The position numbers and the translations under genes are program-made. Shown in pieces: positions 29,691 to 43,848 of a stretch of DNA of 64,000 nucleotides (positions are counted from its first letter, which is position 1; each line of letters begins with the position of its first letter). The notes under the pieces were generated by a model. The model had not been told where the DNA came from. It was given only the letters and a program-made list of their open reading frames with translations, and ran no database searches. Source of the DNA: Marine Group I thaumarchaeote SCGC AAA799-D11 (GTDB taxonomy: Archaea > Thermoproteota > Nitrososphaeria > Nitrososphaerales > Nitrosopumilaceae); NCBI GenBank assembly GCA_000746765.1, contig JOSY01000033.1, positions 1 through 64,000 of the forward strand, given 5' to 3'.

Positions 29691-30005
29691 TTAAGGATTA
29701 ACCATTGTTAATTTTGCCTCAATTCTGTCATAGTATCCGTTTTGGTCCATAGCAGGAACATAAAATGTTGCAGAAATTACATCTCCAACACCTGCATCAC
29801 AATTTGCCACAACGACAGAATGACCTAAAACAGATTCACCAACACAGCCATAATCAGTAACAGCGATGACCGATACATCTTCAGTAACTAGTGTTGGAAC
29901 TATATTCCAAGGAGTTAATGTGAAAACTAGTATTACTGAAGTTGCTGCAGCCAAAATCAACATGAATTTTAGCTGTGGTGTTTTTGTTTGTGTGGTTTGT
30001 TGCAT
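29691..30005 (-). CDS. Membrane-anchored hypothetical protein under a CACTAG-box promoter
   Basis: 104 residues: a short cytosolic N-terminus (QQTTQTKTPQLK), one hydrophobic anchor (about 13-32) and an extracytoplasmic domain with two cysteines (near 53 and 68) that may pair. No family recognised. Its promoter carries the shared TTGGCACTAGAA box and a TATA element at the conserved spacing (30035-30071), which places it in the proposed 29.7-44 kb regulon. A GAGGAG sits just before the ATG. Confidence 0.55.
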   Translation of the reverse strand: MQQTTQTKTPQLKFMLILAAATSVILVFTLTPWNIVPTLVTEDVSVIAVTDYGCVGESVLGHSVVVANCDAGVGDVISATFYVPAMDQNGYYDRIEAKLTMVNP

Positions 30006-30034: not shown

Positions 30035-30071
30035 GATATAAGCAAGGAGTAATTTAGAATTCTAGTGCCAA
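30035..30071 (-). promoter_or_regulatory. CACTAG-box promoter P1 (for 29691-30005)
   Basis: On the minus strand TTGGCACTAGAA (30071-30060) is followed by the TATA element CTTATATC (30042-30035); the CACTAG core starts 25 bp before the TATA element. The ATG is at 30005. There is no second CACTAG copy. Confidence 0.75.
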
Positions 30072-30533: not shown

Positions 30534-30971
30534 CTAAGATACATCCTTCATTCTAGAAGAATAATCATAATAAAACAAATTTTTAGGAGTGATTTCGATA
30601 GCCACTTCATTGTGAGAATTATTTTTCAAAAATTTTGATAGACCAGATTCTTTTTCTCCCAAATATTTTTTCATTAAAAGTTGAAGAATGTTTTTTCCCA
30701 TATCATCGATAATTTTTGCAGAACCGTTTCCACGTACTCCTTTATACGGTGGTTTGTCAGCTGCAATCTCAAATCCACAGACAGGGTTTTTTTTCAAATA
30801 TGAGATAATTTTTGCAGATTTTTGTGTTGCGCAATAAATTTTATCATCAATTTTCATGAACCAAAGTGATATCACATTAGGGACATCAACGTTATTTGTG
30901 TATGCAAGTCTAATTGGGATTTTTGCATCATAAATCATTTGATCAGAATTTCTTTTTTCAATCTTTTGCAA
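30534..30971 (-). CDS. PPOX-class FMN/F420-binding protein
   Basis: 145 residues. IPIRLAYTNNVDVPNVISLWFMKIDDKIYCATQKSAKIISYLKKNPVCGFEI matches the pyridoxamine-phosphate-oxidase-like split barrel, and RGNGSAKIID the later strand; the C-terminal segment NEVAIEITPKNLFYYDYSSR is typical of this group. The start is TTG at 30971, overlapping the upstream zinc-ribbon gene. Cofactor and substrate are unknown; F420- or FMN-dependent reduction, or heme degradation, are the usual options. Confidence 0.72.
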   Translation of the reverse strand: MQKIEKRNSDQMIYDAKIPIRLAYTNNVDVPNVISLWFMKIDDKIYCATQKSAKIISYLKKNPVCGFEIAADKPPYKGVRGNGSAKIIDDMGKNILQLLMKKYLGEKESGLSKFLKNNSHNEVAIEITPKNLFYYDYSSRMKDVS

Positions 30972-31097: not shown

Positions 31098-31134
31098 GTA
31101 TATAATATGAGAAAGAAAATTTATCTAGTGCCAA
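31098..31134 (-). promoter_or_regulatory. CACTAG-box promoter P2 (glycosylase operon)
   Basis: On the minus strand TTGGCACTAGAT (31134-31123) is followed by the TATA element TTATATAC (31105-31098), with the core 25 bp ahead of it. It is back to back with P3, 2 bp between the boxes, so a near-palindrome TCTAGTGCCAACATTAGCAC spans the two divergent operons. Confidence 0.78.
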
Positions 31135-31136
31135 CA

Positions 31137-31173
31137 TTAGCACTAGAAAGAACTATGGTCACTAGTTAAATAT
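31137..31173 (+). promoter_or_regulatory. CACTAG-box promoter P3 (2OG oxygenase operon)
   Basis: TTAGCACTAGAA (31137-31148), a second CACTAG at 31160-31165 (19 bp after the first) and the TATA element TTAAATAT at 31166-31173 (25 bp after the first CACTAG). The downstream ATG is at 31204. Confidence 0.78.
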
Positions 31174-31203: not shown

Positions 31204-31491
31204 ATGACAGACATAATATGGGGAAATGGGGGAAATGTGCTATCAAATGACATTTTTGTTCTAAATGTAACACATAGAAAAAATGGCAATAAAGGGGATT
31301 ATTCAGATACAGAAAAAATCAAAATATCCAAAGCAGACATTCCAGGCTTACCACATGCAAGAGCAGATTGGAGTGAAGATTCTCTAAAATCATGCATAAA
31401 GGATGCCTTTCTAAAATGTGAAATTGAGCAAAGGGAAGATTCAGGCATTCTGTCAGCTAAAGTATCACATTCAGGAGTTGGAGGATACTAA
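31204..31491 (+). CDS. Hypothetical 95-aa protein, partner of the 2OG oxygenase
   Basis: 95 residues, hydrophilic, no membrane segment, no recognised domain. It has ADIPGLPHARADW in the middle and a flexible end, SHSGVGGY. Two cysteines (near 64 and 71) lie in a helix. Its TAA overlaps the ATG of the oxygenase, so stoichiometric co-production is likely. Whether it is a substrate or regulator of that enzyme cannot be seen. Confidence 0.6.
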   Translation: MTDIIWGNGGNVLSNDIFVLNVTHRKNGNKGDYSDTEKIKISKADIPGLPHARADWSEDSLKSCIKDAFLKCEIEQREDSGILSAKVSHSGVGGY

Positions 31492-32267
31492 TGTGGATAC
31501 CAAAGCAGGGACACGTCAATGAAATTAAAAGAGTAGATTTCCAATCACTCATTCAAGGTAAAATACCAGCTATTATTATCAAAAATTTTTACAAAAAAAG
31601 TCAGTGTATAGAAATTTCCCTAAAAATTAATTCAATACAAAAATCAAGGTTTCAAAAGAACAAACTTGATCATATCGGGCCATTTTTAATGGCACATACT
31701 ACAAGAAAAAAAGAATATTTTGACAGTGCAAGAAAAGACAAGAAAAAAAGACAGATGATTTTTTCAACCGAAACAGAGCCTACTGCCAAAATTTTTAGTT
31801 TATTTCAAAAATTGTTTTCAGAATATATGATTTCCACAGCAAAAGAATCAAAAAATGAATACTCCCCATACATCATTAGAATTCACAAAAAAGGAAAATT
31901 CATTCCAATACACAAAGATAATGTGAAATATGAAGGAAAAGAATATGAACTATCAAAAATTGACAGTCAGTTATCCTGCATTCTACATCTTCAAGAATCA
32001 GAAAAAGGAGGAGAACTAGTAATTTATGACAAAAATTGGAGAAAAGAAGACGAAAGATTCAGGAAGATAGATTTTGGATATTATCCCAAAATTATTTCAA
32101 AATCAAATTTTTGTAGAATATCAAATCTAAAAGCCGGAGATTTAGTAATAATTAATCCAAATTATTTTCATCAAGTAACAAAAATTGAAGGAGAATCACC
32201 AAGAATTTCTCTAGGAATGTTTGTAGGGATTTTCAAAAAACAACAACAAATTGTGGGGTGGGCATAA
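31491..32267 (+). CDS. 2-oxoglutarate/Fe(II)-dependent oxygenase (prolyl-4-hydroxylase-like)
   Basis: 258 residues. The double-stranded beta-helix iron triad is visible: HxD as His141 and Asp143 in IPIHKD, distal His227 in YFHQV, and the 2-oxoglutarate-binding Arg238 in SPRIS. LSCILHLQESEKGGELVIYD is the typical central strand, RISNLKAGDLVIINP the strand before the distal His. It should hydroxylate a protein, peptide or small molecule using O2 and 2-oxoglutarate. Middle gene of three with overlapping starts behind promoter P3. Confidence 0.8.
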   Translation: MWIPKQGHVNEIKRVDFQSLIQGKIPAIIIKNFYKKSQCIEISLKINSIQKSRFQKNKLDHIGPFLMAHTTRKKEYFDSARKDKKKRQMIFSTETEPTAKIFSLFQKLFSEYMISTAKESKNEYSPYIIRIHKKGKFIPIHKDNVKYEGKEYELSKIDSQLSCILHLQESEKGGELVIYDKNWRKEDERFRKIDFGYYPKIISKSNFCRISNLKAGDLVIINPNYFHQVTKIEGESPRISLGMFVGIFKKQQQIVGWA

Positions 32268-34941: not shown

Positions 34942-35841
34942 CTACTCTAGATTTAGAGGAATGTTTGCGCTACCAAAATCTTCACTGATTCTAAAGACAT
35001 AGTCTTTTGAGGAATCATATTCAAATTCGGTTCCACCATATCCAATATTTGGTCCAAAGAGAATATTGAATTCTCTTGCATCACCAGGATTTAGCACAAT
35101 TTGTCCACTGGTAAAGTCCATGCCAGAATATTTGAAGGCCTTTGAGCCATCCCATACATCATATGCACATATTTGAGGACTAGTACAGTTTAGTGCAGCA
35201 ATTTCAGAACTGGTGTTTTCAGCAAGCATTCGAATTGACAAGAGAGGTTGGCCAGTAGCAGTAATCTCAAATTCATTTCCTTCAGAGCCAAGCCCAGTCC
35301 AATAATAGGTGATTGGCCCTAAATCAAATTGTTGAGCTCCAGATTTGTATTCGTGTATTTTGATTGCTTGTTTGATAGGTTTTTCACAATCCAATCTTTT
35401 GTATGCTTTGGTAATTTCAGAACATTTTTCAAGTTCAGCTTCTAATTCTGCTAATTTTGAATCGGTGTTATTTGGAACATCAGATGCCATTGGTTTCTCA
35501 GAATGTGCAGATACAGAAATCAAACCAGATTTTATCAAATGTTGAATGGCATTAACAAATTCACCATCAGAAATTGTTCCATCTGCCCACCAACCGGCAT
35601 TATTCTTAACCCAAGATGGAACACCATCAGCAGATTCAGAAGATACCGTAGTAGCAGGTACAGTGATCACCCCATCAGAAATCAAAAATTCAATTCCCGT
35701 AAGGAATTCAGATTCAGAAATTGTTCCATCTGCCCACCAACCGGCATTATTCTTAACCCAAGCTGGAACTTCAGCATATGCCGAAGAAACAGATGTTGCA
35801 ACCAGTAAAATTGCGGCAATTGCAGTTATTGCGGTTTTCAT
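34942..35841 (-). CDS. Secreted protein with two WVKNNAGWWADG repeats
   Basis: 299 residues. A clear signal peptide (about 1-23, ending SSAYA) precedes two copies of a ~35-residue unit: VPAWVKNNAGWWADGTISE and VPSWVKNNAGWWADGTISD, each followed by F-x-IxxLIxxGxI. A linker with a short coiled coil (KLAELEAELEKCSEITKAYKRLDCE) and a C-terminal beta domain follow. The same unit occurs diverged in the proteins at 48146 and 56452. It is likely a cell-surface or S-layer-associated protein. Promoter P4 lies upstream. Confidence 0.75.
   Translation of the reverse strand: MKTAITAIAAILLVATSVSSAYAEVPAWVKNNAGWWADGTISESEFLTGIEFLISDGVITVPATTVSSESADGVPSWVKNNAGWWADGTISDGEFVNAIQHLIKSGLISVSAHSEKPMASDVPNNTDSKLAELEAELEKCSEITKAYKRLDCEKPIKQAIKIHEYKSGAQQFDLGPITYYWTGLGSEGNEFEITATGQPLLSIRMLAENTSSEIAALNCTSPQICAYDVWDGSKAFKYSGMDFTSGQIVLNPGDAREFNILFGPNIGYGGTEFEYDSSKDYVFRISEDFGSANIPLNLE
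35568..35762 (-). repeat. 48-bp exact direct repeat inside the secreted-protein gene
   Basis: Bases 35568-35615 and 35715-35762 are identical over 48 bp, 147 bp (49 codons) apart, and continue with one mismatch into TGGAAC. They encode the TISE/D part and the whole NNAGWWADG core of both repeats. Synonymous sites are identical too, so the copies are recently duplicated or kept alike by gene conversion. Confidence 0.9.
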
Positions 35842-35863: not shown

Positions 35864-35916
35864 TATATAAGCTAGTGGTAACCGATTTTTCTAGTGCTAA
35901 GAAATAGTAATTCTGG
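35864..35916 (-). promoter_or_regulatory. CACTAG-box promoter P4 (secreted repeat protein)
   Basis: On the minus strand: CCAGAATTA (35916-35908), TTAGCACTAGAA (35900-35889), a second CACTAG 19 bp later (within TTACCACTAG, 35881-35872), then the TATA element CTTATATA (35871-35864), 25 bp after the first core. A further TTTACCACTAG lies upstream (35936-35926). The ATG is at 35841. Confidence 0.78.
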
Positions 35917-35986
35917 GAATCAAAACTAGTGGTAAATGAATTTCAGATTGTTCCTCTTTATATGCAAACAGAATCGATCTTCAAGA

Positions 35987-36514
35987 GTGAGTGAAAAACA
36001 AGAGATAGCAAGCACACCAAGACTATCAGAACAAGACATCAAAGAATACGTCCTAGAAAGATTTGAAGATGTAAAACAAGGAAAAATAAAAAATCTTGTT
36101 TCATTTCAAGCCATGAACAAATACATGATTATGGCACATAATCAGGATGAATTAAAAATTCTAGGAAATATTGTTGCAAGTTACAAAAAAATCTCATTAT
36201 TAGACATAATGTCAGAATACGAAAAACATCTAAAGAGTGCATTAGAAAAACCACCAACTATCAAATCACATTCAAATGTAATAATGCATATTTTTGGATA
36301 TTTTTCAAAAAATTTCAGTCAACCAGAAAAAGAACAGTTTTTCAAATTGCTAAATGATTTCAAAAAAGAAGAAATAACAATTGGTAAAATATTGTCTGAG
36401 ATAAATCCCATCATTTATCGATTCAACAACACATATCTTGCAAGTCAAACCTATTTTCTGTTATATTCAGATCCACAACCAGGAAATTTGTTTCAGATAT
36501 TATCCCAAAAATGA
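35987..36514 (+). CDS. ybgA: YbgA/DUF1722 family protein
   Basis: 175 residues from a GTG start. KYMIMAHNQDELKILGNIVASYKK, EYEKHLKSALEKPPTIKSHSNVIMHIFGYFSKNFS and the ending YLASQTYF are characteristic of DUF1722, the YbgA family. In Escherichia coli ybgA is co-transcribed with the DNA photolyase gene phr, and this domain recurs in light-induced clusters of bacteria. The start was chosen because a TATA-like element (35957-35963) lies about 25 bp upstream, as in leaderless transcripts; an ATG at 35936 lies before that element. The function is unproven; no photolyase is in the window. Confidence 0.75.
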   Translation: MSEKQEIASTPRLSEQDIKEYVLERFEDVKQGKIKNLVSFQAMNKYMIMAHNQDELKILGNIVASYKKISLLDIMSEYEKHLKSALEKPPTIKSHSNVIMHIFGYFSKNFSQPEKEQFFKLLNDFKKEEITIGKILSEINPIIYRFNNTYLASQTYFLLYSDPQPGNLFQILSQK

Positions 36515-37768: not shown

Positions 37769-38695
37769 ATGACAGTAAACAGGATAGTTTCATTCTTACC
37801 TAGTGCAACAGAATTACTTTACGAATTTGGAGTCGAAGATAAAATATACGGAGTTACACATGAATGTAGATTCCCAGAAGAAGCAATTTCAAAACCACAA
37901 GTAATTAGTTCAGTGATAGATTCCGATAAATTGTCCAGCAATGAAATCAATACACAAACATGTCAGCTGCTTAACGAAGGAAAAGATATTTTCATTTTAA
38001 ATGAAAAAAACCTAAAAGATGCCAACCCAGATCTAATTATTTCTCAAGAAACTTGCGAGGTTTGTGCAGCATATACAAATCAGGTAAACAAAGCACTGCA
38101 AATTATTGATAGAAAGCCAATAATTCATTCAATGGATCCACACAACATATCAGAAATCTTAGATACAGTAATCAAATTAGGAAAAATCTTAGAAGAAGAA
38201 GACAAGGCAAAGGAAATTTCAGAGTCATTAGAAAAAAGAATTCAAAAGATAAAAAATACAGAACATACCAACATACCAAAAATTCTGGCAATTGAATGGA
38301 TAGAGCCATTTTTTACTGCAGGTCATTGGGTTCCAGAAATGATAGAAATTGCAGGAGGAAGAAATACAATTAGCAAAACAGGGGAACATTCAAGACGTAT
38401 GGATTTTGAAGAAATATCAAATTCTGATGCAGACATCATAATTCTCATGCCATGCGGGTTTGACACAAAACGGATAATTTCAGAATACAATGACATACTA
38501 GAAAAAAACGAGAGATGGAATAGACTCAAGGCAGTACAAAACAAGGCTGTTTTTGCAGTAGATGCTAATTCTTTTTTCAGTAAACCAAGTATCAGAACAA
38601 TTGAAGGGATAGAAATTCTTGCAAAAATTATCCATCCAGAAAAATTCAAAGATGTTAATGTTTCAAAAAATTCTTTTGCAAGGGTTTACAAATAA
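37769..38695 (+). CDS. BtuF-like cobalamin/iron-binding protein, no signal peptide
   Basis: 308 residues of the periplasmic-binding (helical backbone) fold: IVSFLPSATELLYEFGVEDKIYGVTHECRFPEEA, LIISQETCEVCAAYTNQV, SMDPHNISEILDTVIKLGKIL and FTAGHWVPEMIEIAGGRNTIS match cobalamin-binding BtuF-type proteins. Unlike exported members there is no signal peptide or lipobox, so it may be cytosolic; a CEVC pair is present in the binding cleft region. B12 uptake or handling would serve the mutase and the B12-binding protein downstream. Divergent from nreA. Confidence 0.72.
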   Translation: MTVNRIVSFLPSATELLYEFGVEDKIYGVTHECRFPEEAISKPQVISSVIDSDKLSSNEINTQTCQLLNEGKDIFILNEKNLKDANPDLIISQETCEVCAAYTNQVNKALQIIDRKPIIHSMDPHNISEILDTVIKLGKILEEEDKAKEISESLEKRIQKIKNTEHTNIPKILAIEWIEPFFTAGHWVPEMIEIAGGRNTISKTGEHSRRMDFEEISNSDADIIILMPCGFDTKRIISEYNDILEKNERWNRLKAVQNKAVFAVDANSFFSKPSIRTIEGIEILAKIIHPEKFKDVNVSKNSFARVYK

Positions 38696-38701
38696 ATTCA
38701 A

Positions 38702-40081
38702 TCATATCGGGGTTCCTTTGTATTGATAATCAATCACTTTGTGGAACAAGTTGTGCGATGCAATAACGGTTAATACAACTACAAACATACCAACAAAATT
38801 CCTTATCATCATTAATTCATTTGGAGGATTTGCAATCAATGATGTTTCAAACACCACATAATAGTTATCGAATAACCAAAATGCCAAGGTAATCCAAGAC
38901 AATACGCCGGCAATCAAATAACCCAAACGAGTTTTGTTGTGAATGAATATGATTGCAGATACAATTGCAATATACCAAATTGCAGAACCAATCAACCATA
39001 GGGGTTGATAAACATCAGGTCTATCATCTAACCAATAGTAACTCGAACCAATCACAGCTAATGCAAATAGAGAAATTTGAATTAATTTTTGATTAATTTT
39101 GAAACCTGTTTTTTCCTCTCTTTGTTCCATTTGAGGAGGATCGGATTTCATTTCTTTTGTTGCAATATCAATTGCTTCACGAACGGATTTCAAGTGTATA
39201 GGGATAATTTTTGTGATAGAATCATCTGTCACGACAGTATCATGAACCAAACTATCTATCAGAGGCCTTGCAAGTGATGCCTTTACAGGAGTAATAAGAT
39301 CAACCCAATACGAGGATAACCTAGTAGTCAAAAATGGAATTTGAATTACAAACAAATTCTTGTTCAGATATGCAGAATATACACGCATTAATTCCTCATA
39401 AGTCATTTTATCAGGACCGCCAATCTCAAAGATTTTACCTATAGTTTCATGTTTTGAGAGGGACTTAGCAAGGTATTCTACCACATCATCTACTGCAATT
39501 GGTTGAGCTAAGGACTTTACCCAAGATGGGCAAACCATAACTCTCAATCTTTCAACAAGATAACGAAGCATTGCATAAGAACCACCTTTTGCACCAATAA
39601 TTATAGAAGCTCTAAATTCAGTCACAGGGATATTACCAGATGCAAGAATTTCCCCAACTTCTTTCCTACTACGCATATGTGGGGAGAGGTCTAAACTATC
39701 ATTAACTAAACCACCAAGATAGATAATTCGTTTTACACCAGACTCTGTTGCGGCTCTAAGAAAGTTTTGAGCTTGAATTTTTTCTCTTGCAGCAAATTCT
39801 TGCCAATCTCCTTTATCACCTTCCATAGAATGAAGTAAATAGAATGCAGTTTCAATACCAGACATTGCATTTTTTAATTCATCAAAATTGAAAACATCTG
39901 CTTTAACGTATTTTACTTTGTCATTACCAGGTAATTGTTTTCTACTCAAACCTTTTACTGTGTAACCGGAAGAAGTAAGGAATGAAATTAATTTTGAGCC
40001 AATAAAACCAGTGGCACCAGTAACCAAAATTGAAAAAGGTTTAGGATGAGAGATATCAGATTGTGAAACCACTTGTTCCAT
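38702..40081 (-). CDS. NAD(P)-binding SDR/NmrA-like protein with C-terminal membrane domain
   Basis: 459 residues. TGATGFIGSK (about 21-30) is the Rossmann glycine motif, and FYLLHSMEG, RIIYLGGLV, REFRASIIIGAKGGSY and GGPDKMTYEELM place it with extended atypical SDRs like YbjT/NDUFA9. The last ~120 residues hold four predicted membrane helices and an SDR-plus-DoxX/TM style layout. SDR and SRPBCC genes of this kind are typical members of bacterial light-induced clusters. Directly downstream of the small membrane gene behind promoter P5. Confidence 0.75.
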   Translation of the reverse strand: MEQVVSQSDISHPKPFSILVTGATGFIGSKLISFLTSSGYTVKGLSRKQLPGNDKVKYVKADVFNFDELKNAMSGIETAFYLLHSMEGDKGDWQEFAAREKIQAQNFLRAATESGVKRIIYLGGLVNDSLDLSPHMRSRKEVGEILASGNIPVTEFRASIIIGAKGGSYAMLRYLVERLRVMVCPSWVKSLAQPIAVDDVVEYLAKSLSKHETIGKIFEIGGPDKMTYEELMRVYSAYLNKNLFVIQIPFLTTRLSSYWVDLITPVKASLARPLIDSLVHDTVVTDDSITKIIPIHLKSVREAIDIATKEMKSDPPQMEQREEKTGFKINQKLIQISLFALAVIGSSYYWLDDRPDVYQPLWLIGSAIWYIAIVSAIIFIHNKTRLGYLIAGVLSWITLAFWLFDNYYVVFETSLIANPPNELMMIRNFVGMFVVVLTVIASHNLFHKVIDYQYKGTPI

Positions 40082-40288
40082 TTATCTTAGTGCTCCCATC
40101 ATTTGTTGTTTTTGTTTCTCTTTTTTGACTTTGAGACCTAAGCCAATTGTTATACCGCCCATAGCTAGCCAGAGATATCCTCCAGTAGCAAATGCTGAAT
40201 GCAATGACGCATCAAAATTTTGTGCAGTCAAAAATCCACCACCTAGACCAACCAAGGCAATACCTGCAAAAAGAATTGTTTTGTCCAT
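40082..40288 (-). CDS. Small membrane protein, two helices
   Basis: 68 residues from the ATG at 40288, preceded by AGGAG at about 9 bp. Two hydrophobic helices (ILFAGIALVGLGGGFL and YLWLAMGGITIGLGL) and a basic Lys/Gln tail. The frame extends to 40342, but that start falls in the 5' leader after the TATA element. It ends 0 bp before the SDR start, so both make the P5 operon. Confidence 0.6.
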   Translation of the reverse strand: MDKTILFAGIALVGLGGGFLTAQNFDASLHSAFATGGYLWLAMGGITIGLGLKVKKEKQKQQMMGALR

Positions 40289-40343
40289 CAGACATGTCTC
40301 CTTTTTTGATGTATTTTGTACATGAATGGTTTTTGGTTTCAAA

Positions 40344-40397
40344 TTATATAAACTAGTGATAATTTCTATTACTAGTGCTAAATTATATTAATTCTGG
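40344..40397 (-). promoter_or_regulatory. CACTAG-box promoter P5 (membrane protein-SDR operon)
   Basis: On the minus strand: CCAGAATTA (40397-40389), then TTTAGCACTAGT (40382-40371), a second CACTAG 19 bp later (40358-40353), and the TATA element TTTATATA (40352-40345) 25 bp after the first core. The CCAGAATTA block and its 7-bp spacing to the box are shared only with P4. Confidence 0.8.
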
Positions 40398-40445
40398 AAA
40401 TAACACAGAAACAAATAAGCAAAAAATCTTAATTTTGATAATAAT

Positions 40446-40482
40446 TTGGCACTAGAAAACGGGGTTAGCATTAGTTATATAA
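40446..40482 (+). promoter_or_regulatory. CACTAG-box promoter P6 (B12-binding protein)
   Basis: TTGGCACTAGAA (40446-40457), a second half-like TTAGCATTAG (40465-40474, CATTAG 19 bp after the first core) and the TATA element TTATATAA (40475-40482) at 25 bp. The ATG at 40502 lies about where a transcript would start, suggesting a leaderless mRNA. Divergent from P5. Confidence 0.78.
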
Positions 40483-40501
40483 TATACCATTAAAGAAAAT
40501 C

Positions 40502-41344
40502 ATGGTCTACTTACGAGCAAAAAAAGTAAAATCAGATCAATATCTGTATTTAGTCAAAAGCGTATGGGATTCAAAAAAGAGTACCTCAAAGCAGGAAATT
40601 ATCAAATATCTTGGAAAGGCATCTGAAGTTGTCAAAGACGACATTCCAATAGATTACAGAAATGATCCTAAAGTGTTGTCAGCTTTATCAGCATACAATC
40701 CAAAAGATATCAAGAAAAGAGAAGATGCAACAAAAAAATCAAAACAACAATTATACAAAAAATTAACTGAGGGGAGTATTCAGGATTGTGTAAAAATCTA
40801 TGAAGAATATATCAAAATTTTTAATGCCTCGGATTTTTTTGATAAAATTCTAAAGCCAACAATGTACAAAATTGGTGATGATTGGGCCACAGGTAAAATC
40901 AGTATAGCCACAGAACATGTTGCAAGTAATGTTGCACAAACACTTGTCAAAATAATAATGGATCAAGTGTCAGCTGTGGGAAATAAAAAAACAGTTCTCA
41001 TATGTGTTCCATTAGGGGAAGAACATCATTTGGGATGTGATGTATTAGAGACATATTTGTCAATTAAGGGTTTTAAAATTTTCAACATGGGAACGTCAAT
41101 GCCAACAGAATCAATCCTTAGTTTCATTGACAATAATAAACCAGATGTAGTGTTGGTATCAATTACATTAGAAGATAACCTCGGAGCAGGACAAAGATTA
41201 GTTAAAAAAATAAAAGATCATGTAGACATGCCTGTGTTAATCGGAGGATATGCACTTCAAGCAAAAAAGATTCCAAAATTTGCAGGCCAAATAATCCCAG
41301 ATTGCGGTCTTGAAGAAGTTCCCAAAATTTTGAGAAAACTTTAA
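40502..41344 (+). CDS. CarH-like B12-binding protein, candidate light sensor
   Basis: 280 residues. Residues about 82-160 form the helical B12 cap with the CarH/LitR signature W-x9-EH (Trp128, Glu138, His139 in WATGKISIATEH). Residues about 162-278 form the cobalamin Rossmann domain with E-x-H-x-x-G (Glu173, His175, Gly178; His175 the predicted cobalt ligand). In Thermus CarH these capture adenosylcobalamin, released by light. The CarH His next to the Trp (His132), which ligates cobalt after illumination, is Ala129 here. Instead of a MerR helix-turn-helix the N-terminus (YLRAKKVKSDQYLYLVKSVWD) is a basic beta-rich segment like those at transposase N-termini. A corrinoid methyltransferase protein is the alternative. 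Confidence 0.75.
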   Translation: MVYLRAKKVKSDQYLYLVKSVWDSKKSTSKQEIIKYLGKASEVVKDDIPIDYRNDPKVLSALSAYNPKDIKKREDATKKSKQQLYKKLTEGSIQDCVKIYEEYIKIFNASDFFDKILKPTMYKIGDDWATGKISIATEHVASNVAQTLVKIIMDQVSAVGNKKTVLICVPLGEEHHLGCDVLETYLSIKGFKIFNMGTSMPTESILSFIDNNKPDVVLVSITLEDNLGAGQRLVKKIKDHVDMPVLIGGYALQAKKIPKFAGQIIPDCGLEEVPKILRKL

Positions 41345-42415: not shown

Positions 42416-42452
42416 GTATTTAATAAAAATCAAAAAATTATCATAGTGCTAA
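42416..42452 (-). promoter_or_regulatory. CACTAG-box promoter P7 (SRPBCC operon), one-base variant
   Basis: On the minus strand TTAGCACTATGA (42452-42441), with CACTAT in place of CACTAG, and the TATA element TTAAATAC (42423-42416) 25 bp after the core. The ATG is at 42395. Weakest of the nine boxes by sequence but exact in spacing. Confidence 0.65.
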
Positions 42453-42725: not shown

Positions 42726-42762
42726 TTGGCACTAGAAAAAATAATCTCTTTCTCTTAAATAA
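42726..42762 (+). promoter_or_regulatory. CACTAG-box promoter P9 (zinc ribbon-TFB operon)
   Basis: TTGGCACTAGAA (42726-42737) and the TATA element TTAAATAA (42755-42762) at 25 bp. The ATG of the zinc-ribbon microprotein (42783) is 28 bp after the TATA start, consistent with a leaderless transcript. Confidence 0.75.
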
Positions 42763-42782: not shown

Positions 42783-42935
42783 ATGAAACAAGAATTGATT
42801 CAAAAAAATAAACCAGAATTAAAAATTAAAAATAAAAATATAAAAATTTGCATCAATTGTGGAAATTCAAAAGTTGATTCACATGAGTTTGGTATTTCAT
42901 GTGAAGATTGTGGCATTCTTTTGTGGAGAGTATGA
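42783..42935 (+). CDS. Zinc-ribbon microprotein (50 aa) preceding TFB
   Basis: 50 codons: a basic N-terminus (KQELIQKNKPELKIKNKN) and a C-x2-C ... C-x2-C zinc ribbon (ICINCGNS and CEDCGILLW). Only one base separates its TGA from the ATG of the TFB gene at 42937. The placement invites a role as a partner of that TFB. Confidence 0.65.
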   Translation: MKQELIQKNKPELKIKNKNIKICINCGNSKVDSHEFGISCEDCGILLWRV

Positions 42936-42936
42936 A

Positions 42937-43848
42937 ATGATTACAGAACTGGTGCATCAAAAAACGTGTAAAAAAAACAAAATTGTAACTGATCTAAATA
43001 CAGGTGAGGTTGCATGTACAAATTGTGGTGCAGTGTTATCTGAAAGAGTTGTGGATAATGGTCCTGAAAGTTTAGGGATGTCAGGAGAAGAATACCAAGC
43101 CAACAGCAGAGTAGGAAGAAAAATTTCATTAAAAATGATAGATATGGGTTTGTCTACAATCATTGAATCAAAAGATAAAGATGCAACTGGAAAGGGGTTA
43201 TCCAATGAAAACAAGAGAATGTTTTATCGCCTAAGAATGTGGGACAGAAATAGTCGTTCTGCAAACAGTATCAAGTCATTTCAAAAAGCTTTCACCATGC
43301 TTGATGGAATTAGTGCAAAATTGGGGCTCCCAGAGCCAGTTATAGAGCAAACAGCATATCTATTTAGAAAAATTGCCGCAAAAAAGATACTTGCAGGAAG
43401 GTCTACTGCAGGCATACTCTGTGCTGCAATTTACATCACATGTAGAATGACAAACACTCCTAGAACTTTACAAGACGTAGCAAATGCCGGTAATGTGAAC
43501 AAGAAAAACATTCAGAGAACATACAGATTCCTTGCCAGAGAGTTAAACATTACACCTGAAATTTATCATCCAACAGAATTTGTGACACGAATTGCAAAGG
43601 CAGTGAATATTTCTGAAAAGACAGAAAGACTAGCATTTAGAATTCTGGATCTATCTGCAAGAAACGGAGTATTGGAAAGCAAAAACCCAATGGCAATGGC
43701 AGCTGCTGCAACATATCTTGCATCAGTAAAAAATGATGAAAAGATTTCTCAATTAAAAATTTCCAAAGTTTCTAGAATTAGTGCAGTCACAATTAGAGAC
43801 AGAACAAAAGAGATTTTGAAAAAAGTAGGAGATGAAATTAATGGATAG
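42937..43848 (+). CDS. tfb: Transcription initiation factor TFB, divergent
   Basis: 303 residues. The zinc ribbon has a CTNC second knuckle, but its first knuckle is H-x3-C (HQKTC) instead of CxxC. The B-reader/linker GRKISLKMIDMGLSTII and two cyclin repeats follow, with GRSTAGILCAAIYITCRMTNTPRTLQDVANAGNVNKKNIQRTYRFLARELNI and KNPMAMAAAATYLASV. TFB recruits RNA polymerase to TATA/BRE promoters; archaea with many TFBs use them as global regulators. The start at 42937 is chosen because the ORF part upstream lies inside the zinc-ribbon gene in another frame. Confidence 0.9.
   Translation: MITELVHQKTCKKNKIVTDLNTGEVACTNCGAVLSERVVDNGPESLGMSGEEYQANSRVGRKISLKMIDMGLSTIIESKDKDATGKGLSNENKRMFYRLRMWDRNSRSANSIKSFQKAFTMLDGISAKLGLPEPVIEQTAYLFRKIAAKKILAGRSTAGILCAAIYITCRMTNTPRTLQDVANAGNVNKKNIQRTYRFLARELNITPEIYHPTEFVTRIAKAVNISEKTERLAFRILDLSARNGVLESKNPMAMAAAATYLASVKNDEKISQLKISKVSRISAVTIRDRTKEILKKVGDEING

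Follow-up and report, generated by a model that had tools for sequence, protein, structure and literature searches.

The window analysed here, a 64,000-nt stretch from the genome of the Marine Group I thaumarchaeote SCGC AAA799-D11 (1.36 Mb, 87% complete, with Nitrosopumilus as nearest named relatives), carries a gene for a CarH-like protein with cobalamin-binding domains, transcribed divergently from an operon with an NmrA-type SDR. The following features were recognised at this locus:

40502–41344, plus strand: gene of the CarH-like B12-domain regulator (280 aa, ATG start)
40502–40711, plus strand: N-terminal basic three-stranded beta module and helix (aa 1–70), in place of the MerR helix-turn-helix, presumed to bind DNA
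40745–40957, plus strand: cap four-helix bundle (B12-binding_2, aa 82–152), with G125xxW128 and E138-H139
40994–41254, plus strand: Rossmann cobalamin domain (aa 165–251), with G172-E-x-H175-xx-G and G197xxxP201
40446–40474, plus strand: putative operator of the CarH-like gene, TTGGCACTAG-N9-TTAGCATTAG, 27 nt upstream of the ATG and abutting the TATA box
40475–40484, plus strand: candidate TATA box of the CarH-like gene (TTATATAATA), assigned from sequence
40353–40381, minus strand: mirror operator for the divergent small membrane protein and SDR operon, TTAGCACTAG-N9-TTATCACTAG
40082–40291, minus strand: small membrane protein, first gene of the SDR operon (ATG start at 40291)
38702–40081, minus strand: NmrA-type SDR with C-terminal membrane segments

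Both cobalamin-related domains of the CarH-like protein scored above the curated Pfam cut-offs (B12-binding_2, residues 82–152, E=1e-11; B12-binding, residues 165–251, E=6e-11). CarH homologues have been defined by W-x9-EH together with a B12 motif (PMC8156234), and the protein has W128-x9-E138-H139 in its cap helices. With E173, H175 and G178, S220-T222 and G248-G249 at spacings of 41 and 25 residues (ExHxxG-x41-SxT-x25-GG), it also conforms to the classic cobalamin motif D/ExHx2G-x41-SxT/V-x22-27-GG (PMC9304148). The SignatureFinder signature of light-responsive cobalamin domains, GxxW, EH, GxxH and GxxxP (PMC11796333), is likewise complete (G125xxW128, E138H139, G172xxH175 and G197xxxP201). 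W128, E138, H139 and E173-x-H175-xx-G178 all lie where the initial annotation had placed them, as does Ala129 beside the tryptophan. The best NCBIfam match was CarH (NF052513), with 61.5 bits over residues 78–263 only, and did not reach the curated cut-off of 400 bits; a MerR-type CarH-like protein of Caballeronia scored just 139.6 bits against the same model.

When the PDB was searched with the family profile, the best four matches were SasPcob (two chains), CtMerR and AbDPcob, all of which have been demonstrated to respond to light (PMC11796333), with corrinoid proteins and MetH ranking lower. The AlphaFold2 model of the protein (pLDDT 87.5) had exclusively CarH, photocobilin or CtMerR entries among its top 50 Foldseek matches in the PDB. 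In a joint alignment, GxxW...EH was present in every photoreceptor and in every W-bearing archaeal member, whereas MetH and corrinoid proteins showed GxxF and lacked EH. The phylogenetic tree split MetH and corrinoid proteins from all other sequences (UFBoot 100); the archaeal clade received a support of 78 and grouped, at 80, with a cobalamin protein of Ilyobacter encoded beside a GGDEF gene, the finer branches being weak since some of the sequences consisted of aligned PDB stretches only. The CarH-like protein is therefore set apart from the corrinoid methyltransferase proteins, a placement with which would have spoken against the reading in the initial annotation, and an origin from these or from MetH is ruled out by the tree (UFBoot 100) and by the motif, W and EH being present in place of GxxF. 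Proven photoreceptors carry Arg, Gln or Tyr at the position of His132 of CarH (PMC11796333), so Ala129 is no argument against light sensing. It does preclude a bis-His light state of the Thermus CarH kind via position 129, and a CtMerR-like route, through water or Glu, appears more likely for the light state.

The N-terminal part of the protein is of a different kind. Residues 1–70 had neither a Pfam family match nor a sequence match in the PDB, and no MerR helix-turn-helix was detected in the protein with Pfam or NCBIfam, which leaves it outside the MerR-type regulators of the LitR/CarH definition. AlphaFold2 predicts (pLDDT 88) antiparallel strands at residues 2–9, 12–23 and 28–39, followed by a short helix at 56–65, and the first 40 residues are basic (10 K/R vs 3 D/E). 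The profile of this module matched the N-termini of IS-type transposases, with DDE_Tnp_1 downstream, encoded by another archaeal genome from the phylum (E=1e-8 for that genome). Both the absence of the MerR domain and the likeness to transposase N-termini proposed initially were hence borne out, the predicted basic beta module being conserved throughout the family. Compared with PDB folds, the module gave no structural match with E below 0.6, so that the case for DNA binding rests on the operator described below, the basic charge and the transposase relatives; from these we infer that the module probably binds DNA. Further copies were not found in the window's own genome. A weakly matching copy begins a Fic protein (L146:3434–4321, minus strand), and the module may therefore move between protein contexts. 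A 74-aa ORF comprising the module only (L148:2253–2477, plus strand) lies directly downstream of the SDR homologue in a more remote genome of the order; it is possibly a free DNA-binding partner or a remnant.

The family is conserved among ammonia-oxidising archaea. One scan of GTDB genomes revealed 38 family loci in Nitrosopumilaceae, and a family member was present in 111 of 300 genomes of the class at E of about 1e-20 or better, weaker hits in these genomes being mostly methionine synthase, as judged by long open frames. Members share the N-terminal module from Nitrosopumilus through to more remote genera and families of its order, with identities as low as about 29%. In an alignment of 58 diverse members, W128 and E138-H139 were each conserved in 55, and H175 in all 58, which shows that the motif did not arise by chance. 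The first three elements of the light-responsive signature (GxxW, EH, GxxH) occurred in 55/58 and all four in 21/58; G197 was kept in just 21 of the 58, which counts against a photoregulator. Residue 129 was variable (Ala in 20, Glu in 12, Gln in 6, and others). Viral homologues were searched for and none were found.

W and EH were lost together in three members (L103:5971–6831, L106:5902–6762 and L108:5914–6771, all minus strand), which form a monophyletic paralogue with 100% support. In this paralogue, H175 and the beta module are retained; the operator is missing from its promoter, and two of the three loci have a photolyase nearby. It looks like a parallel to the CarH-to-CarA transition of myxobacteria.

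The intergenic region (40353–40474) contains two mirror-image paired sites, oriented towards one divergent gene each. An A/T-rich, TATA-like box, assigned by reference to the archaeal promoter layout, directly adjoins either site. The operator consensus is TTRGCACTA(G/T)-N9-TTRKCAYYAG, a direct repeat with a period of 19. Four paired sites were observed in the window vs 0.17 expected from shuffles, along with nine exact half-sites (TTRGCACTAK), all of them intergenic and between 30.0 and 42.8 kb. With up to four mismatches allowed, 59 of 75 family loci had the operator upstream of the gene, compared with 2 of 1540 shuffled upstream regions; as the seed pattern was taken from these same family promoters, this comparison is to be read as shared occurrence and not as independent discovery. 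Its end typically lies 27–33 nt before the start codon of the family gene. At one mismatch or less, the operator was detected in 97 of 300 genomes, 94 of which carry the CarH-like gene (Fisher p=1e-55, shared ancestry ignored); the other three had the operator with no CarH-like gene detected. That family members conserve the operator in front of the gene speaks for autoregulation and for DNA binding, and thus for a role of the protein as a putative autoregulated transcription factor. The shared box that had been taken as a sign of autoregulation is real, and longer than was implied, being paired.

Operators and half-sites also mark other genes in the window:

30062–30071, minus strand: half-site upstream of a small membrane protein (29691–30005, minus strand)
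30534–30971, minus strand: weak pyridoxamine-phosphate-oxidase-like match (below the Pfam cut-off), with a half-site upstream
31125–31134, minus strand: half-site facing the 30534–30971 gene
31137–31165, plus strand: operator upstream of the genes at 31204–32267
31491–32267, plus strand: 2OG-Fe(II) oxygenase-like protein behind the operator, with a strong match to the WelO5 family (carrier-independent halogenase)
34942–35841, minus strand: secreted-type protein, operator 30 nt upstream
35872–35900, minus strand: operator between the 34942–35841 gene (minus strand) and the DUF1722 gene (plus strand)
35936–36514, plus strand: DUF1722 (YbgA-like) protein; the domain is also that of the C-terminal part of the RudS tRNA desulfidase
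42443–42452, minus strand: half-site upstream of the genes 42395–42036 and 42036–41590 (weak SRPBCC-like), both on the minus strand
42726–42735, plus strand: half-site upstream of a TFB gene (from about 42934; 42934–43848, plus strand)

Homologues of the small membrane protein at 29691–30005 have a paired operator elsewhere. This TFB might be a general transcription factor under light control; several distant loci (L073, L074, L097, L099 and L101) likewise have TFB paralogues near the family gene. Neither a photolyase nor the FAD amine-oxidase-like gene described below was found in the window's own genome (87% complete), and the local regulon would therefore consist of the SDR operon, DUF1722, the 2OG oxygenase, the SRPBCC-like gene and others, possibly including TFB.

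Across genomes, the operator followed by a short leader was also found before a RudS gene and the genes of several small or secreted proteins. It preceded the NmrA-type SDR in 21/76 upstream regions, the FAD amine-oxidase-like gene (CrtI/HpnE superfamily) in 33/55 and the c9 genes in 12/18, a few of these counts taking in sites more than 150 nt away where the start was misplaced. The SDR adjoins the family gene in 46 of 76 loci, 15 of them distant, and the FAD gene is its tail-to-tail neighbour in most Nitrosopumilus loci. Since no SQS_PSY phytoene/squalene synthase was present in 101 genomes, the FAD protein should not be named a carotenoid enzyme, and the canonical carotenoid pathway was rejected as a target. 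The c9 gene (L181:1549–2100, minus strand, and homologues) encodes a conserved 183-aa protein that has no Pfam match, repeatedly adjoins photolyase and often has the operator upstream; it is a candidate new photoprotection gene.

Of 300 genomes, 39 had a class I photolyase, and the CarH-like family was present in 37 of these 39 (Fisher p=5e-16, shared ancestry ignored); by the listed positions, the photolyase lies within 5 kb of the CarH-like gene in about half of the 37. At L253, which coincides with L079, the operator is followed by the CarH-like gene and then by photolyase. A paired operator directly before photolyase was rejected as the general arrangement, being found in only 1 of 36 direct upstream regions; the tie of photolyase to the CarH-like gene is through neighbourhood, co-occurrence and some operons. 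In Pseudomonas, a LitR-controlled light cluster comprises phrB, a short-chain dehydrogenase and an FAD-dependent oxidoreductase (PMC9758184), and RudS, which removes the near-UV-sensitive 4-thiouridine, occurs in light operons (PMC11417400). By analogy, the archaeal operator-bearing or neighbouring genes (photolyase, SDR, FAD oxidoreductase and RudS) correspond to members of the LitR/CarH light regulon of bacteria.

With CarH and class I LitR (Thermus thermophilus CarH, PDB 5c8d), the archaeal protein shares the cobalamin domain, the W-x9-EH cap, ExHx2G-x41-SxT-x25-GG and a direct-repeat operator at the promoter, and LitR clusters share a light-response kit with photolyase, SDR and FAD oxidoreductase genes. 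It differs in lacking the MerR helix-turn-helix, in having Ala in place of His132, in its TATA promoter, in missing the NCBIfam CarH cut-off as noted above, and in its operator, which has two half-sites with a period of 19, whereas that of CarH has three 11-bp repeats. The photocobilins and CtMerR (SasPcob, 8j2w; AbDPcob, 8j2y; CtMerR, 8jbs) are the nearest solved relatives by profile, with the same light-responsive signature and, again, no His at position 132, but their partner domains are biliverdin-binding, GGDEF or MerR, and none has the beta module. The class II LitR clusters of Pseudomonas (PmlR/PplR) have the same gene kinds, namely photolyase, SDR, FAD-dependent oxidoreductase and RudS (PMC9758184, PMC11417400); class II LitR itself, however, has the four-helix bundle only, is thought not to bind B12, and has LOV partners and a MerR helix-turn-helix. 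In the IS-type (DDE_Tnp_1) transposase of the archaeon of the same phylum, the same beta module is followed by a DDE transposase, without a B12 domain.

The explanation which we regard as probable is that the CarH-like protein is an archaeal B12-dependent photoregulator, acting as an AdoCbl-dependent dark repressor. Domain identity, family conservation, the conserved operator, its co-occurrence with the gene and the gene kit are what the sequences show, every computational test able to refute the photoreceptor candidate having come out in its favour; from these we infer operator binding, AdoCbl as the ligand, light as the signal and repression in the dark. Repression, rather than activation, is suggested by analogy with CarH, the AdoCbl-bound oligomer of which binds in the dark and lets go in the light (PMC8156234). 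The Rossmann domain and the W-x9-EH cap helices would enclose AdoCbl, the lower ligand of which would be His175. Without light, the oligomer carrying AdoCbl would set its N-terminal beta modules on the two direct half-sites (TTRGCACTAG, period 19) and, as these abut the TATA box, keep TBP/TFB off, an occlusion that fits the position of the operator. Blue-green light would break the Co–C bond and loosen the oligomer, and the CarH-like gene itself, the divergent SDR operon and the other operator-bearing genes would be switched on. Direct, not inverted, repeats would fit the head-to-tail assembly of CarH, with a different DNA geometry given the period of 19 instead of 11.

Another possible explanation, which we consider unlikely, is that the protein binds AdoCbl and operator DNA and senses cobalamin availability or oxidative stress rather than light. 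A gene for a BtuF-like protein of the periplasmic-binding family is located close by (37769–38695, plus strand) and in 13 other loci, ammonia-oxidising archaea (AOA) make cobalamin (PMC7554672) and many gene-bearing genomes have no photolyase, all of which would suit such a sensor. However, the BtuF-like gene in the window had no operator in a search for paired sites and half-sites, the W-x9-EH cap and the GxxW/EH/GxxH signature are characteristic of light-responsive domains (PMC11796333), and the kit of photolyase, RudS, SDR and FAD oxidoreductase matches LitR light clusters. It is improbable, too, that the protein has no DNA-binding activity and acts via another factor which binds the TTRGCACTAG operator, in the manner of AerR, which acts on CrtJ. 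The module without structural match to known DNA-binding folds, the three genomes with the operator and no detected CarH-like gene, and the TFB paralogue nearby in many loci could all be accommodated in this way; against it, the CarH-like gene keeps the operator in front of it in lineages as divergent as about 30% identity, even as its neighbours vary, and the module is both basic and common to transposases. A non-regulatory protein, either the corrinoid carrier of a methyltransferase or a fragment of MetH, to which methionine synthases as best single-sequence PDB matches might point, is very improbable and largely refuted by the phylogeny, the W and EH residues, the additional N-terminal module, the conserved operator and the fact that no methyltransferase was seen among annotated neighbours.

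The depth distribution of AOA has been explained by their sensitivity to light. The open-access literature searched described no light-sensing regulator for these organisms. The main text of PMC11796333 never mentions archaea, and its 1561-sequence network may already include such archaeal sequences unremarked. We think it fairly likely, with somewhat more reserve than for the photoregulator reading itself, that this is the first archaeal B12-dependent photoreceptor regulator, with a CarH-type sensor, a transposase-like beta module replacing MerR, a new direct-repeat operator at TATA promoters, an AOA photoprotection regulon and a W/EH-less paralogue that may parallel CarA. The B12-dependent photoregulator suggests a fusion of a B12 light module with a DNA-binding domain that is not related to MerR and is probably common to a transposase. 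The kinds of light-regulon genes known from Pseudomonas recur here in a different domain of life. With a named candidate, an operator and a list of candidate targets, the light response in archaea becomes directly testable, and the system might serve as a new green-light switch for archaeal promoters. Light may control gene expression in microbes that are among the most abundant in ocean and soil.
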